A stretch of DNA of 54,150 nucleotides from Fonticella tunisiensis (lineage in GTDB: Bacteria > Bacillota > Clostridia > Clostridiales > Caloramatoraceae). Positions 1 to 7,714 of this stretch are shown here, in pieces. The notes under the pieces were generated by a model that was not told where the DNA came from, searched no databases, and worked only from the letters and a program-made list of their open reading frames with translations. The DNA lies in NCBI RefSeq assembly GCF_004364155.1, contig NZ_SOAZ01000021.1:1-54150 (forward strand). Reading direction: 5' to 3'. Both the position numbers and the translations under genes were made by a program. Position 1 is the first letter of the stretch. The number at the start of each line of letters is the position of its first letter.

Positions 1-116
1 ATGTTTGGATTAGACACCTATATCATACATGATTTTCACTATGGTTGTTATTTTTTTATTCTATCTGTTGCATTTAATTTTACAATGAACCAAATTATTT
101 TTGTAATTGGCAATTA

Positions 117-146
117 TTGAATAATGACAAAATAATATGGTATAAT
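117..146 (+). promoter_or_regulatory. Sigma-A-type promoter upstream of the 178-795 gene
   Basis: A TTGAAT box at 117-122 and a consensus TATAAT at 141-146 are separated by 18 bp. They lie about 30 bp upstream of an ATG that has an AAGGGTGGGG ribosome binding site. Inferred from sequence match and position only. Confidence 0.6.
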
Positions 147-177
147 ATGCATGTAAATTTTTAAGGGTGGGGTTAAA

Positions 178-795
178 ATGAATTTTTCTGATTACCAAAG
201 CATTATTAATAAGATTTCAGGAGTAATAAATTCTAAAGTAGTTATTGATAAAAACAATATAGTTGAAATACATATACTTGCAAACAATGCCAGGTCTCCA
301 AAGCAAATAGTTAGAGATATTGAATCTTCACTTTTGGCTGCCTTTAATTATAGGATTGATAGAAAGAAGGTTAGTATTGCCCAGATTCAGGCTGACGATC
401 ATGATTCGCTAAGAAGAATAAAATTTATAGGTGTAACACTTAAAACTTATGACAATACCGTAGAGTGCAGCGTAAAACTTCTATATCAGGATGAGGAGTA
501 TTCAGTAACACAGATTGGAATAAATACAGCTGCAAACAGGAGAAAAATAGTTGCCGATACCACAGTTAAAGCAGTAGAAAAAATTCTTGGACAAGCCTTT
601 GTATTTGATATCCAGGATGTGATATTATCATCAAGCAATGATGTAACATTTGTATCGGTGCTTGTAAATATGATCTTCGAAGGAAGTGAAGAAACCATGG
701 TAGGGTCAGCAGTTGTTAAAAACGATATAAATGAAACGATTGCAAAATCGACGCTTGATGCCATTAATAGAAGGGTTCAAAAAATTAATATTTAA
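178..795 (+). CDS. Conserved-looking protein of unknown function, 205 aa
   Basis: I do not recognise a named family. The protein is soluble, with no signal peptide or membrane segment. The N-terminal part (about residues 20-70) is amphipathic and contains ARSPKQIVRDIESSLLAAF followed by an RIDRKKVSIAQI strand. The rest (about 80-205) reads as an alternating beta-strand domain ending in a helix with TLDAINRRVQ, which resembles a small regulatory alpha/beta domain rather than an enzyme. The ATG has a strong GGGTGGGG site and its own promoter. It is followed at once by an inverted repeat, a micro-ORF and an HD-GYP membrane protein on the same strand, so it may belong to that signalling locus. 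That link is inference from position. Confidence 0.75.
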   Translation: MNFSDYQSIINKISGVINSKVVIDKNNIVEIHILANNARSPKQIVRDIESSLLAAFNYRIDRKKVSIAQIQADDHDSLRRIKFIGVTLKTYDNTVECSVKLLYQDEEYSVTQIGINTAANRRKIVADTTVKAVEKILGQAFVFDIQDVILSSSNDVTFVSVLVNMIFEGSEETMVGSAVVKNDINETIAKSTLDAINRRVQKINI

Positions 796-801
796 TTCGT
801 C

Positions 802-1023
802 AATAAAGGCCGATTATAAATTTTATCTTTTGTTTATCCTTTACCCCATAAGCGGAGTAAGTTACTTTAGGTTTTTAGCGAAGCCCTAAAGAATTTACAT
901 AAAGGGGGAATTTTCATGAAGAAGTATTTACCTGTTTTACTTGCTGTTTTAGCTCTTGCTATAGCTGGCGGATCAACAATTACTTGGATATAAAAATACA
1001 TTGACCTATAATCGGCCTTTATT
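802..1023 (+). repeat. 17-bp perfect inverted repeat enclosing a micro-ORF
   Basis: The 17-mer at 802-818 (AATAAAGGCCGATTATA) is the exact reverse complement of 1007-1023. The enclosed 188 bp holds a local hairpin (CTTTAGG at about 869-875 against CCCTAAAG at about 885-892) and the micro-ORF at 916-993. The right arm ends only a few bases before the AGGGAGG site of the HD-GYP gene at 1042. The pair could be a long-range RNA helix in a leader transcript, or the terminal repeats of a very small mobile element. No target-site duplication is obvious. Confidence 0.8.
916..993 (+). CDS. Hydrophobic 25-residue micro-ORF (putative peptide)
   Basis: ATG at 916 is preceded by a strong AAAGGGGGAA site at 901-910 with good spacing, and the frame ends at TAA 991-993. 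The peptide begins MKKYLPVLLAVLALAIAGG and ends in STITWI: a lysine start, a 15-residue hydrophobic core and a double glycine six residues before the end. This layout recalls short hydrophobic peptide pheromones and also type I toxin peptides, but I see no specific family match. It sits inside a 17-bp inverted repeat, directly upstream of a membrane HD-GYP gene on the same strand. Translation is likely from the ribosome binding site; function is unknown. Confidence 0.5.
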   Translation: MKKYLPVLLAVLALAIAGGSTITWI

Positions 1024-1041
1024 ACATATAGGGAGGCACGT

Positions 1042-2310
1042 ATGAGGAATTTACCTATGAAATTAAAAGCTTTCTTAGTAACAATATACATATTAGCCTT
1101 CGGCTCCTTATGTATTTTTTTATATCTAAATTATATACCTCTTGAATTATCAAATTATATGAACATATTATTTTTTATATTATTGACCGCTTTAACAGAA
1201 TCAATAACTGTGCCTTTTTATGGTTTTTCATTTAGTACAAGTTTCGCTATACAGTTAGCTTCTTATATTTTATTTGGTCCACTATCTACCATTATAATAG
1301 CTATTGTTGGTTTTTCATTGAGAATTTTAAAAACAAACAATAAACATATTCATATACTAAATACACCATTATATAAAACTGTATTTAATTATAGTATCTT
1401 TCTGTTATCAACGCTTTACGGAAATTATGTTTTTCTAATTTTTGGTGGTCGATTGCCGATTAAGAATATAAATGAGAACATTGTTCCAATTATAGCTTTT
1501 TGTATAGTATTTTTTTTATTGAATACTTTAATAATATCTAGATTATTTGCAATATTGAATAATAGAAACGTTTTATATTTTTTTGTTAGCAATGCAAAAT
1601 TAGGTTTGCTTAATATACTGGCAATGGCCCCTTTTGGTGTTATATTAGCATTTATATTTAATTCTTATAAATACATAGGCGTACTATTATTCATCTTTCC
1701 AATCGCTCTTGCTAGGTATACTTTTTCTATATATATTGAATCAAAGTCAAAATATATACAAACAGTTAATGCACTAATGAGAGCTATTGAAGCAAGGGAT
1801 AAGTATACCGAAGGTCATTCCCAGAGAGTTTCAGAAATCACTAGAATAATTGCTAAAGAGTTGAAATATGGTGAATGGGAAATCGAACAGCTAACTATTG
1901 CAGCTTTATTGCATGATGTGGGTAAAATTGGAATTGATGATCACATACTTAATAAGCCTGGTAAACTAACTGCTGAAGAGTACGATATAATTAAAACACA
2001 TCCTGAGATAGGATATAATATTTTAAAAGATATTAAAGATCTTGAGAAAATTAATAACATAGTTAGATTTCATCATGAAAGATTTGATGGAAAAGGATAT
2101 CCACTTGGAAAAAAGGCAAACGAGTTAAGTCTTGATGTTTTCATCGTTCAGTTAGCAGATTCAATAGACGCTATGGCAACGGATAGACCTTATAGAAAAG
2201 CATTAAGTCAGGAAGAAATTATTGAACAATTGGAAAAAAATAAAGGTACTCAGTTTCATCCTGATGTTGTAGACGCCTATCTTAAAGCTTTGAAAAAGCT
2301 ACAAAAGTAA
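1042..2310 (+). CDS. Membrane-anchored HD-GYP domain protein (putative c-di-GMP phosphodiesterase), 422 aa
   Basis: The N-terminal half (about residues 1-230) is a membrane domain of six or seven hydrophobic helices. It runs into an ARYTFSIYIESKSKY linker and an HD-GYP domain (about 240-420). Catalytic signatures are visible: GHSQRV with H259, the HD pair H291-D292 followed by VGKIGI, H344-H345, and the GYP triplet at 352-354 in FDGKGYP. HD-GYP proteins hydrolyse c-di-GMP to pGpG or GMP, so the role is probably to couple a membrane signal to c-di-GMP turnover. ATG 1042 has an AGGGAGGCACGT site. It is followed 15 bp later by a DUF5317 gene and then by a copy of its own membrane domain without the effector. 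The signal sensed is unknown. Confidence 0.88.
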   Translation: MRNLPMKLKAFLVTIYILAFGSLCIFLYLNYIPLELSNYMNILFFILLTALTESITVPFYGFSFSTSFAIQLASYILFGPLSTIIIAIVGFSLRILKTNNKHIHILNTPLYKTVFNYSIFLLSTLYGNYVFLIFGGRLPIKNINENIVPIIAFCIVFFLLNTLIISRLFAILNNRNVLYFFVSNAKLGLLNILAMAPFGVILAFIFNSYKYIGVLLFIFPIALARYTFSIYIESKSKYIQTVNALMRAIEARDKYTEGHSQRVSEITRIIAKELKYGEWEIEQLTIAALLHDVGKIGIDDHILNKPGKLTAEEYDIIKTHPEIGYNILKDIKDLEKINNIVRFHHERFDGKGYPLGKKANELSLDVFIVQLADSIDAMATDRPYRKALSQEEIIEQLEKNKGTQFHPDVVDAYLKALKKLQK

Positions 2311-2325
2311 TGAGGGGTAGTAACA

Positions 2326-2877
2326 ATGTTTATTGAGGTATTTATTTTTTCGATTATATTAGGATTTATTTTAAAAGGTAACATAAAAAATTTTGATGTA
2401 TCCAAAATAAAAAGCATATATCTGGTCTTCATTGCTTTTTCTATAGAATTCATCATAGTTATGTTAATTAGAAATCATGTCGTAGCTAGGGGTACTTTAA
2501 CTTATATATTTGATTTATTAATGTATTTAATTTTATTTTTGTTTATCTATCTCAATAGGCAAAATAAATACATTGTTCTAATGGGAATTGGATTTTTATT
2601 AAATGCATTGCCTATTTTTTTAAACGGAGGAGCAATGCCAGTAGATGCAAAAGCTACAGTAATTGCTGGGCTTTTTCCTTCTATTGAAGAGGCAAAAATT
2701 TCTTCTGAAGGACTTTATACAATTATAAATTCTAACACAAAACTTTGGTTTTTAGGAGATATTTTCCCAAAAACGATATTAAGAAATTATGTTTTTAGTA
2801 TTGGGGATGTAGTTTTATGCATAGGTTTGATGCTTTTTATAGTTAGTGAAATGACTAGAAATCATGCAGAAAGATGA
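2326..2877 (+). CDS. DUF5317 family membrane protein, 183 aa
   Basis: A small integral membrane protein with about five hydrophobic segments. The opening IFSIILGFILKGNIKNF, the central LNALPIFLNGGAMPVD and the late GDIFPKTILRNYVFSIGDV match what I know of DUF5317, a family often found beside HD-GYP genes in Clostridia. No biochemical role is established. The GAGGGGTAG site precedes ATG 2326, 15 bp after the HD-GYP stop, so the two are probably co-transcribed. The family call rests on memory of the pattern. Confidence 0.75.
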   Translation: MFIEVFIFSIILGFILKGNIKNFDVSKIKSIYLVFIAFSIEFIIVMLIRNHVVARGTLTYIFDLLMYLILFLFIYLNRQNKYIVLMGIGFLLNALPIFLNGGAMPVDAKATVIAGLFPSIEEAKISSEGLYTIINSNTKLWFLGDIFPKTILRNYVFSIGDVVLCIGLMLFIVSEMTRNHAER

Positions 2878-2887
2878 TTTTTTTATA

Positions 2888-2915
2888 TTGTTAAAATTAA
2901 TTAATTTAATATAAT
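2888..2915 (+). promoter_or_regulatory. Possible promoter for the 2956-3666 gene
   Basis: TTGTTA at 2888-2893 and TATAAT at 2910-2915 are 16 bp apart, 40 bp upstream of the next ATG. The DNA is very AT-rich, so chance matches are likely. Confidence 0.35.
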
Positions 2916-2955
2916 CACGTAATTCTTAATGACATTCTAATTTTCGGAGGAAAAA

Positions 2956-3666
2956 ATGAAAAACAAAAAATTAGCAATATATCTTGCAATACTTTATGTT
3001 CTCTCAGCTTTTTGCTATGTTAGTAGCTATTTATTATATACAAAAAAATACCATGCTCAACTTGCAAATATAAGTTTTTCAGATATTATAATATTTATTT
3101 TTTTATCCGCTATTGCTGAGTCATTTGTAGTTAAATATAAAAACGTTGGCATCAGTCCTGGATTTGGAATTACAACTGCAGCTACATTACATTTTGGTGT
3201 ATTTTGGGGAATGGTTATAGTAAGTATTGGCACTACTTTAAGATGCGTAAGATTTCAAGGTAAAACTAACCATTTATTTAATACTCCTGTATATAAAACC
3301 TTATATAACATATCAAACTATTCTATCTCAACTTATCTTGGTGGTATTGTATTTCATTTTATATTAAACCGAAATTATACTACTTATCCTATATATATAT
3401 TTGTACAATATATTTCTTTTGTTATTTTATTTTTAATGGTAAATACACTTATTATTTCAATATTAGTAGTAATTTTATCCCAAACTAATTTTTTCGATAT
3501 TTTTAGTTATCATTTAAGAATTGGATTTTTAAATATAGTATATGCTTCACCATTTGGTATATTACTTCTTTTCCTATACAACTCGAACAATATTTTAGGT
3601 ATATTGGTAACTTTATTAGTTATCATAACTTCCCGTTATATTTTTAAACTTTATTTATTGGATTAG
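2956..3666 (+). CDS. Sensor-only membrane paralogue of the HD-GYP protein, 236 aa
   Basis: The whole protein aligns by eye with residues 1 to about 235 of the protein at 1042-2310. Shared landmarks are an acidic AES or TES turn, GFGITTAA against GFSFSTSFAI, NTPVYKTLYN against NTPLYKTVFN, VNTLIIS against LNTLIIS, LRIGFLNIVYASPFGILL against AKLGLLNILAMAPFGVIL, and the final SRYIFKLYL against ARYTFSIYI. It then stops where the paralogue enters its HD-GYP domain. The following sequence shows no HD-GYP remnant, so this looks like a complete sensor module rather than a recent truncation. A GGAGG site precedes ATG 2956. Possible roles are a regulatory or decoy subunit or an independent receptor; this is inference. 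Confidence 0.75.
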   Translation: MKNKKLAIYLAILYVLSAFCYVSSYLLYTKKYHAQLANISFSDIIIFIFLSAIAESFVVKYKNVGISPGFGITTAATLHFGVFWGMVIVSIGTTLRCVRFQGKTNHLFNTPVYKTLYNISNYSISTYLGGIVFHFILNRNYTTYPIYIFVQYISFVILFLMVNTLIISILVVILSQTNFFDIFSYHLRIGFLNIVYASPFGILLLFLYNSNNILGILVTLLVIITSRYIFKLYLLD

Positions 3667-3759
3667 ATCATTGGGAAATAAGGCAATTATATCCATATTT
3701 TTTCATTAATTAGAATACTTTTTTCCATCGTTAACTTAGATGATTAATTTTAATAAAAC

Positions 3760-3798
3760 AAATTAAAAGAGGCACAATAAAAGTGCCTCTTTTAATTT
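3760..3798. terminator. Bidirectional rho-independent terminator
   Basis: The arms AATTAAAAGAGGCAC (3761-3775) and GTGCCTCTTTTAATT (3783-3797) form a perfect stem with a 7-base loop and have A- and T-rich flanks on both sides. It separates the + strand locus from nifJ on the - strand. Confidence 0.85.
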
Positions 3799-3799
3799 A

Positions 3800-7714
<3,915 letters not shown>

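Follow-up and report, generated by a model that had tools for sequence, protein, structure and literature searches.

Is the 25-amino-acid (aa) hydrophobic peptide encoded just upstream of a membrane HD-GYP protein in Fonticella tunisiensis a genuine gene product and, if so, what might it act on? We analyzed a 54,150-nucleotide (nt) stretch of this genome (contig NZ_SOAZ01000021.1, positions 1 to 54,150; hereafter, the window), in which the peptide open reading frame (ORF), MKKYLPVLLAVLALAIAGGSTITWI, occupies 916–993 and begins with ATG. All features described here are located on the (+) strand, and coordinates refer to the window unless a locus is named. A preliminary description of this region had reported a strong ribosome binding site (RBS), a lysine-rich start, a hydrophobic core, and a double glycine followed by STITWI, as well as a membrane HD-GYP gene downstream, all of which agree with our findings; the peptide starts with MKK, and the RBS, AAAGGGGG, is located at 901–908, with its 3′ end seven bases upstream of the ATG. 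It had overlooked a ~220-nt RNA cassette, bounded by an inverted repeat, around the ORF. Comparative sequence analysis demonstrated conservation of the ORF and its frame, of the RNA helices, and of the gene order, along with a link to the HD-GYP protein, which is assigned a MASE9-type membrane sensor domain. We see an even chance that the ORF encodes a membrane microprotein dedicated to the MASE9 sensor, as its partner or ligand, with its dose set by the RNA leader.

Conservation of the peptide ORF and its RNA cassette

A DNA search of 60 relatives yielded significant matches directly 5′ of HD-GYP orthologues, and reading of the loci revealed the same peptide in 11 further genomes (G003, G005, G009, G010, G011, G012, G013, G016, G018, G020, and G035). 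The ORF is located just 5′ of the HD-GYP orthologue in 10 of these 11 genomes, and the contig of G020 stops before the HD-GYP gene; the orthologue in G016 is interrupted by stop codons. A peptide profile was run against 391 genomes of the class. It returned 28 loci beyond these, and 21 of the 22 inspected proved to be peptide loci, in eight other families (six weaker loci, L080, L083, L086, L087, L089, and L090, were outside the 22). A second profile was that of gene1, the 205-aa upstream neighbor of the cassette (178–795), which retrieved 443 relatives from a collection of named genomes, the closest being that of Fervidicella metallireducens (70% identity). We analyzed 80 of the 443 and found the peptide encoded after gene1 in 73, one copy of which (L150) is clipped by a contig end. 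The seven loci without it consist of three contig ends (L132, L138, and L156), two runs of N within the peptide (L149 and L185), a tandem gene1 (L148), and a locus in which SecA comes next (L194). Carriers include Clostridium, Caloramator, Caldicoprobacter, Soehngenia, Acidaminobacter, Thermincola, Desulfosporosinus, and Symbiobacterium, as well as Alkaliphilus, in which the peptide has diverged; two loci stem from metagenome bins assigned to Actinomycetota and Sumerlaeota, possibly binning errors. Across Bacillota, the peptides share the consensus MKKxLxxLxALLxLxLAGG[AS]x[FY]xW.

Substitutions within the frame are chiefly third-position and synonymous. Specifically, 223 non-independent pairs of equal length (65–97% DNA identity) showed 1135, 667, and 2140 differences at the first, second, and third codon positions, respectively, and a simple count over the codons with one difference in these pairs gave a ratio of non-synonymous to synonymous change (dN/dS) of about 0.18. 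In 57 nearest-neighbor pairs, the single changes comprised 252 synonymous and 152 non-synonymous ones. Since change is concentrated at third positions and is mostly synonymous, the frame is coding, and the substitution pattern identifies the ORF at 916–993 as a real coding frame under purifying selection. Two of the checks suggested in the preliminary description, namely retention of the ORF in relatives and synonymous bias, came out in favor of the peptide, and the outcome it had regarded as adverse (a frame lost or broken by indels) was absent in near relatives; peptides were diverged or shortened in a few distant loci (L221, L226, L228, L273, and L277).

The cassette that encloses the ORF ends in a perfect 17-nt terminal inverted repeat, which forms the P1 helix from a 5′ arm at 802–818 (AATAAAGGCCGATTATA) and a 3′ arm at 1007–1023 (TATAATCGGCCTTTATT), the latter terminator-like with a U-rich end. 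The predicted cassette fold closed by P1 has an energy of −60.8 kcal/mol (z = −2.67). We compared P1 arms at 92 loci, a set used for all RNA counts over 92 loci and from which L131, L135, L136, L193, and L150 (ORF hand-read or clipped) and nine duplicates were excluded. The best complementarity between the stretches flanking the ORF had a mean of 31.8 for a locus's own arms, compared with 19.2 for swapped arms and 18.0 for arms shuffled by single bases, and the own pairing lay above all ten shuffles at 83 of the 92 loci; the 5′ arms comprised 82 distinct sequences. As judged from these comparisons, P1 keeps its complementarity while its sequence changes among relatives. The 3′ arm starts no more than 20 nt past the stop codon in 72 of the 92 loci, and the ten bases past the G/C core of P1 average 54% T (background, 30%), with at least five T in 68 loci; owing to this T-rich stretch, P1 resembles a terminator stem that has the whole cassette as its loop.

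The leader preceding the ORF carries two UAGCGRAG motifs and a hairpin, P2b, with the second motif in its loop. In the window, motif 1 (AGCGGAG) is found at 851–857 and motif 2 (UAGCGAAG) at 876–883, in the hairpin loop. The 5′ strand of P2b (CTTTAGG, 865–871) is predicted to pair with its 3′ strand (CCTAAAG, 885–891), a helix that covaries in the family, and the minimum-free-energy fold adds an outer pairing of GTAAGTT (857–863) with AATTTAC (892–898). Many families also have an outer helix, P2a, in which the stretch between the RBS and the start codon is paired; in the clade of the window, the outer helix pairs other letters and leaves the RBS outside. A strict rule (at least six perfect pairs of the form NNNNGC/GCNNNN within 20 nt of the start) counted P2a in 33 of the 92 loci, and leaders of the Desulfosporosinus type show, by eye, a bulged outer helix. 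In 23 sequences chosen by hand, none of which has an additional G ahead of the helix, P2a and P2b contained 91.6% standard pairs, compared with 26–49% in slid registers, and 9 of 12 pairs had changed on both sides; none of 500 shuffles reached either value. Unpaired AGCG-AG and CAGAG segments are near-invariant across Bacillota. Among the 21 profile-found peptide loci, G356 lacks the AGCG motif and G251 lacks a detectable P1. At L140, L144, L147, and L191 (Desulfosporosinus and a Bacillota bin), three or more near-tandem copies of the AGCGGA/AGCGAAGCGG motif precede the peptide, as if its copy number mattered.

An RNA model (R1) built from 36 leaders, with the window excluded, found the window copy at 848–918 (34.1 bits, E = 2.3e-6), its 3′ limit being the start codon. 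Over 398 genomes of the phylum, R1 gave one match each in 45 genomes, and 42 of these 45 matches adjoin gene1 by coordinates. At each of the 30 best matches, gene1 lies upstream and a hydrophobic peptide is encoded in frame from the predicted start; two of these peptides reach contig ends and three are diverged. MASE9-HD-GYP comes next in 28, and contig ends in the other two. An Rfam scan of positions 1–5000 at E ≤ 1 gave two sub-gathering matches and none accepted over the cassette, since SNORD22 over 911–997 (25.5 of 50 bits) and U6 inside gene1 were read as chance, while 16 other loci scanned at E ≤ 1 gave eight matches, none over the cassette. At L076, a match to Clostridiales-2 RNA (383–461 of that locus; 42.8 bits against a cut-off of 58.6) lies roughly 1 kb 5′ of the cassette. 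A mobile element similar to miniature inverted-repeat transposable elements was considered and rejected in view of the single copy that the window's genome holds at E ≤ 0.001, the fixed gene position, and the species-specific complementary arms.

Gene neighborhood of the cassette

The gene that follows the cassette (1042–2310, with the RBS GGGAGG at 1031–1036) encodes a 422-aa protein combining a MASE9-type membrane sensor domain with an HD-GYP phosphodiesterase domain (HD_5, E = 3.1e-32). H259, H291 D292, H320, H344 H345 E346, D373, and G352 Y353 are invariant in 48 sequences, with P354 nearly so. With these metal-binding and GYP residues present, the protein has the signatures of an HD-GYP phosphodiesterase (HD, HDGK, HHE, and GYP) and is predicted to hydrolyze cyclic di-GMP (c-di-GMP). 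MASE9 (Pfam PF20972) is matched at E ≤ 0.01 in the N-terminal membrane part of 33 of the 48 orthologues (best E = 3.8e-12); the window's own protein shows no MASE9 match by itself, and the assignment is made through these orthologues.

The gene order is gene1, cassette, MASE9-HD-GYP, and DUF5317; across 27 loci, gene1 was present in 26, HD-GYP in 26, and DUF5317 in 25. HD-GYP is the next gene in 72 of the 80 named loci, and the eight misses comprise six contig ends, one N-gap, and one true absence. Present in 149 of the 398 phylum genomes, gene1 occurs in all 45 that have an R1 match. To separate the two neighbors, 51 gene1 copies are informative (L229–L278, consisting of the 30 best gene1 loci, window included, and 20 hand-picked ones from genomes without an R1 match), a set that is not independent of the other loci. 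They were read with a fixed rule requiring motif plus RBS, formulated once the family was known. This rule found the peptide in 30 of the 34 gene1 copies with HD-GYP next (in the other four, including two diverged cases, it was recognized by eye) and in none of the 17 copies without HD-GYP next, which argues that the cassette goes with MASE9-HD-GYP and not with gene1.

Distances between proteins point to the same domain. In partial Mantel tests over 63 loci, controlled for HD-GYP, gene1, and DUF5317 distances, MASE9 distance was correlated with that of the peptide core (partial r = 0.21) and tail (0.14), with 0 of 200 permutations each, and neither the core nor the tail followed the HD-GYP domain of the same protein (−0.10 for the core and −0.04 for the tail); because such a test is liberal, we take it as only supportive. 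The tie between a short hydrophobic peptide and the adjacent membrane HD-GYP protein, first raised in the preliminary description, is well supported by this divergence in step with MASE9, by the strict synteny, and by the way the cassette follows MASE9-HD-GYP.

Several loci depart from the common arrangement. Among 10 printed loci in which gene1 lacks the cassette, SecA comes next in six; Pfam confirms four of the six as well as L194, and the full set with SecA next comprises L194, L251, L259, L263, L266, L275, and L276 (five of seven by Pfam, two by eye). The SecA neighborhood is a second gene context for the gene1 family. L148 (Thermincola) and L235 carry tandem gene1 copies before a single MASE9-HD-GYP gene, and at L133 (Caloramator australicus), MASE9-HD-GYP at 4790–6111 of that locus appears split into two ORFs by a frameshift or an assembly error, with the peptide intact. 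In a single case, G356 (L099; genome 80% complete), gene1 was not found and the AGCG motif was lost, with P1, peptide, MASE9-HD-GYP, and DUF5317 kept.

Possible roles of the peptide

We collected 123 distinct peptides and anchored 120 of them on AGG or its variants, numbering positions from the first A of AGG (position 0); outside the 120 are three peptides without the anchor, the five diverged ones named above, and those clipped by contig ends. In the core, L at −3 (112 of 120), A at 0 (114), G at +1 (107), and G at +2 (116) are strongly conserved, and position +3 is A in 97 and S in 20 peptides. Small residues are also common at −7 (A/S in 86) and −4 (A/T/S in 114), and together with A0 and A+3 they would form one helical face. 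The tail past AGGx has 4–6 residues in 117 peptides; 114 tails contain an aromatic residue, and 78 peptides have W at +7. Of the first eight residues, one to three are basic in 119 of the 120, and acidic residues occur in 6; the length is 24–26 aa in 74 of the 92 loci. Conservation peaks in the hydrophobic core, where it is specific to position, and this pattern favors a working transmembrane helix. The anatomy thus fits a short transmembrane helix, oriented N-in/C-out, with a packing face.

According to the explanation that we favor, the ORF would be translated into a single-pass microprotein, probably N-in/C-out, that is dedicated, as partner or ligand, to the MASE9 domain in the adjacent HD-GYP c-di-GMP phosphodiesterase, with DUF5317 joining the same membrane complex. 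The small-residue face (A/S at −7, A/T/S at −4, and AGGA from 0 to +3) would pack onto partner helices, and the short aromatic tail would be exposed at the outer surface. The UAGCGRAG hairpins just 5′ of the RBS, which in many families pair the stretch from the RBS to the start, would set peptide synthesis, and P1 would close the cassette just 5′ of the HD-GYP RBS. The RNA would set the level of the peptide and perhaps that of HD-GYP, and the peptide would tune phosphodiesterase activity. Membrane insertion, MASE9 binding, an effect on activity and c-di-GMP, and a ligand or protein partner of the RNA are what we infer from these comparisons. As a more tentative extension, which we regard as possible but on balance doubtful, this would be a hitherto unrecognized phylum-wide module in which an intramembrane peptide ligand gates a MASE9 phosphodiesterase and is made from its own riboswitch-like cassette, shut by a long-range helix, so that the state of the RNA is converted into ligand dose and then into c-di-GMP level.

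Several observations weigh against the microprotein explanation. Nine of the 92 loci fail the P1 shuffle test, the own P1 pairing lies above all twelve swapped arms in only 67 of the 92, and an ungapped helix finder scores the outer leader pairing level with or above every one of 20 swapped partners at just 31 of 91 loci. The R1 run over the phylum, with its stricter filters, misses the window's own genome; 3 of its 45 matches (G610, G693, and G767; E ≥ 8e-4) are away from gene1, and 3 of the 30 best loci carry a training leader letter for letter, which leaves 27 new ones. The one inspected profile locus that is not a peptide locus (L077, E = 5.9e-4) belongs to a longer ORF that is unrelated. 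The available flanks of several peptide-keeping loci (e.g., L175 and L187) yielded no DUF5317, which therefore may not be strictly needed. The distance of the peptide core also tracks DUF5317 (0.15, 1 of 200 permutations) and weakly gene1 (0.09, 8 of 200), and as partial Mantel tests are anti-conservative, MASE9 may just be the better clock. Furthermore, the anatomy is also compatible with a cleavable export sequence, since the hydrophobic stretch and basic start resemble a cleavable signal sequence in which AGG[AS] could be the cleavage site. The window peptide matches the lipoprotein attachment site model LPAM_1 at E = 0.03 (15.2 bits against a cut-off of 20), and pheromone models scanned against 23 members gave sub-threshold matches, the best being Phr_nterm (E = 0.0056) and NprX (E = 0.015).

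These last points lead to the rival that survives best, although we consider it less likely, namely that the peptide is a pheromone. The hydrophobic segment would be an export signal cut near AGG[AS], and the released aromatic product of 4–6 residues (here about TITWI) would be sensed outside the cell by MASE9-HD-GYP in an autocrine or quorum-type circuit feeding c-di-GMP. The peptide length, the basic start, the hydrophobic core, and the short aromatic tails agree with such a precursor, as do the divergence of the tail in step with MASE9 and the weak Phr/NprX matches; streptococcal short hydrophobic pheromone precursors are alike in size and build. Against it, the core is the most conserved and position-specific part, unlike in an ordinary signal sequence, the tail pattern (x-aromatic-polar-W) varies rather little from one species to another, and the fixed neighbors, among those classified, are gene1, MASE9-HD-GYP, and DUF5317. 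The secreted signal suggested in the preliminary description may still apply, with position-specific conservation of the hydrophobic segment favoring a transmembrane helix.

Precursors of the SHP/Rgg and other RRNPP systems resemble the present case in having a small gene, a basic start, a hydrophobic body, and a candidate dedicated receptor encoded next to it. However, their receptor is a cytoplasmic Rgg/RRNPP regulator, whereas here it would be a membrane MASE9-HD-GYP enzyme, and the peptide here is encoded inside a conserved folded RNA and reaches the cut-off of no family model in its window form. No cytoplasmic RRNPP receptor gene is present among the window neighbors (gene1, HD-GYP, DUF5317, and a further membrane protein), the first three of which recur in relatives. 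The window peptide has no NCBIfam family at E ≤ 1, and no NCBIfam or Pfam model reaches its cut-off for the peptides scanned; RAMP4 was matched at E = 0.016 (23 scanned), and the Phr_nterm and RAMP4 matches are each confined to a few members. Double-glycine precursors carry a leader of the LSxxEL...GG type. A leader of this bacteriocin/ComC kind is absent before the double glycine here, where a basic start and hydrophobic helix are found instead.

Alternatively, and with rather low probability, the ORF may be a leader ORF whose translation, rather than its product, controls the downstream genes. A ribosome at the stop codon would cover the P1 3′ arm and decide whether the U-tailed P1 forms and halts transcription or translation. 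The short distance between the stop codon and the P1 3′ arm, the T-rich stretch past the P1 core, and a structured leader running up to the peptide start would all suit such a device, and a described analogue is the odc1 upstream ORF (uORF) motif (uORF-25-1), in which a helix holds the RBS of a conserved 11-aa uORF (PMC8632094). Control by translation alone is difficult to reconcile with an amino-acid core conserved phylum-wide, and the residues adjacent to the stop codon are variable in a tail of varying length, unlike a fixed arrest site (W at +7 in 78 of 120, as above); a terminator loop of ~190 nt would also be unusual. The odc1 uORF motif is the nearest described arrangement, and it shares with the Downstream-peptide motif a conserved RNA fold that precedes or overlaps the start of a short ORF, itself conserved (PMC8632094 and PMC2864571). 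Both differ from the present cassette in sequence, structure, phylum, and gene context, and here the helix encloses a whole ORF that encodes a hydrophobic 25-mer.

It is also conceivable, at very low probability, that the RNA cassette itself is the functional unit, as a riboswitch or protein-binding operon leader, and that the peptide is a reader of the folding state or a minor by-product. Near-invariant unpaired segments such as AGCG-AG and CAGAG are the usual mark of ligand- or protein-binding RNA, and G356, in which gene1 was not found, has lost the AGCG motif too; yet the ORF evolves at a dN/dS of about 0.18, and G356 retains the peptide and P1 without the motif. Finally, long-range end pairing, a structured initiation region (here in part of the family), and a short hydrophobic peptide are traits of type I toxins, but a small membrane toxin silenced by 5′–3′ pairing of its mRNA, a hidden RBS, and an antisense RNA antitoxin, the "membrane-active toxin" of the preliminary description, is highly improbable given the single copy in the window's genome (E ≤ 0.001), the operon position fixed phylum-wide, the 0 of 17 copies where HD-GYP does not follow gene1, and no minus-strand promoter-like site within 796–1041 among the matches listed.

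Returning to the membrane microprotein, its parallels would be small membrane proteins that regulate sensors, such as MgrB and SafA, which act as a single short hydrophobic helix beside a membrane sensor; the peptide here is shorter than these, and it differs further in its structured RNA cassette and in its partner, a predicted c-di-GMP phosphodiesterase. The stimuli of MASE-type sensors of c-di-GMP enzymes are largely unknown, and a 2022 review places MASE1 among putative sensor domains without discernible physiological purpose (PMC8846402). The downstream enzyme here likewise has a MASE domain (MASE9, in 33 of 48 members), for which a peptide partner is proposed, a kind of partner not mentioned in that passage of PMC8846402; a fixed 25-aa peptide is a concrete MASE9 candidate. 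Small membrane peptides and structured leaders are known, but we found no earlier description of this module, peptide family, or RNA in the main texts of a mostly open-access literature (PMC6429828 refers many short-ORF motifs to its supplement). The module is absent from Rfam, Pfam, and NCBIfam at the thresholds used, and the ORF is too short for most gene callers. It is nonetheless widespread, with gene1 in 149 and R1 in 45 of the 398 sampled phylum genomes, R1 missing some variants, and its recurrence in many Bacillota points to an unexplored control of the c-di-GMP signal. As a conserved RNA leader and a conserved microprotein share one locus, these two unknowns can be approached together.

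Neighboring proteins and operon context

No Pfam family was found for gene1. Its structural model (predicted local distance difference test [pLDDT], 91) resembles, in residues 1–70, the C-terminal domains of CDF/ZnT proteins (CzcD: Z 9.4, root-mean-square deviation [rmsd] 1.8, 66 residues aligned) and, in residues 79–204, the regulatory domain of LeuA/CMS (Z 10.9, rmsd 3.0, 118 aligned), both by VIA-align 2. This likeness of folds suggests a ligand-sensing role for gene1. A cassette-binding double-stranded RNA protein was considered because the top Foldseek match was a pair of double-stranded RNA-binding domains (E = 5.2e-4, TM 0.26), and was set aside in view of the VIA-align 2 matches and of the gene1 copies that lack the cassette.

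The DUF5317 gene (2326–2877) encodes a 183-aa membrane protein (PF17248, 113.4 bits against a cut-off of 25). Its model (pLDDT 94) gave no solved-structure match at E ≤ 0.001 and no sequence match at E ≤ 1, and a known protease or receptor fold was rejected. Peptides of the Alkaliphilus-type loci L177, L190, and L193 lack AGG (LSAAASFSWF is one of their endings), and no DUF5317 was found within the flanks of these loci, a hint that the AGGA face and DUF5317 are linked.

Ahead of gene1, a sigma-70-like promoter candidate at 117–146 matches 10 of 12 consensus positions and has TG before its second hexamer; it is possibly the promoter of the operon. By consensus match alone, the region contains 25 such promoter-like sites, compared with 29.5 expected in shuffles. 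No short-loop terminator is present in 1–4000 among the matches listed. Downstream of DUF5317, a gene at 2956–3666 that is possibly a further member of the operon encodes a 236-aa membrane protein without an output domain. This protein stands alone but is related to the HD-GYP protein's membrane domain (36% identity over 191 aa, E = 4e-30); it could titrate the peptide or represent an inactive copy of the receptor.
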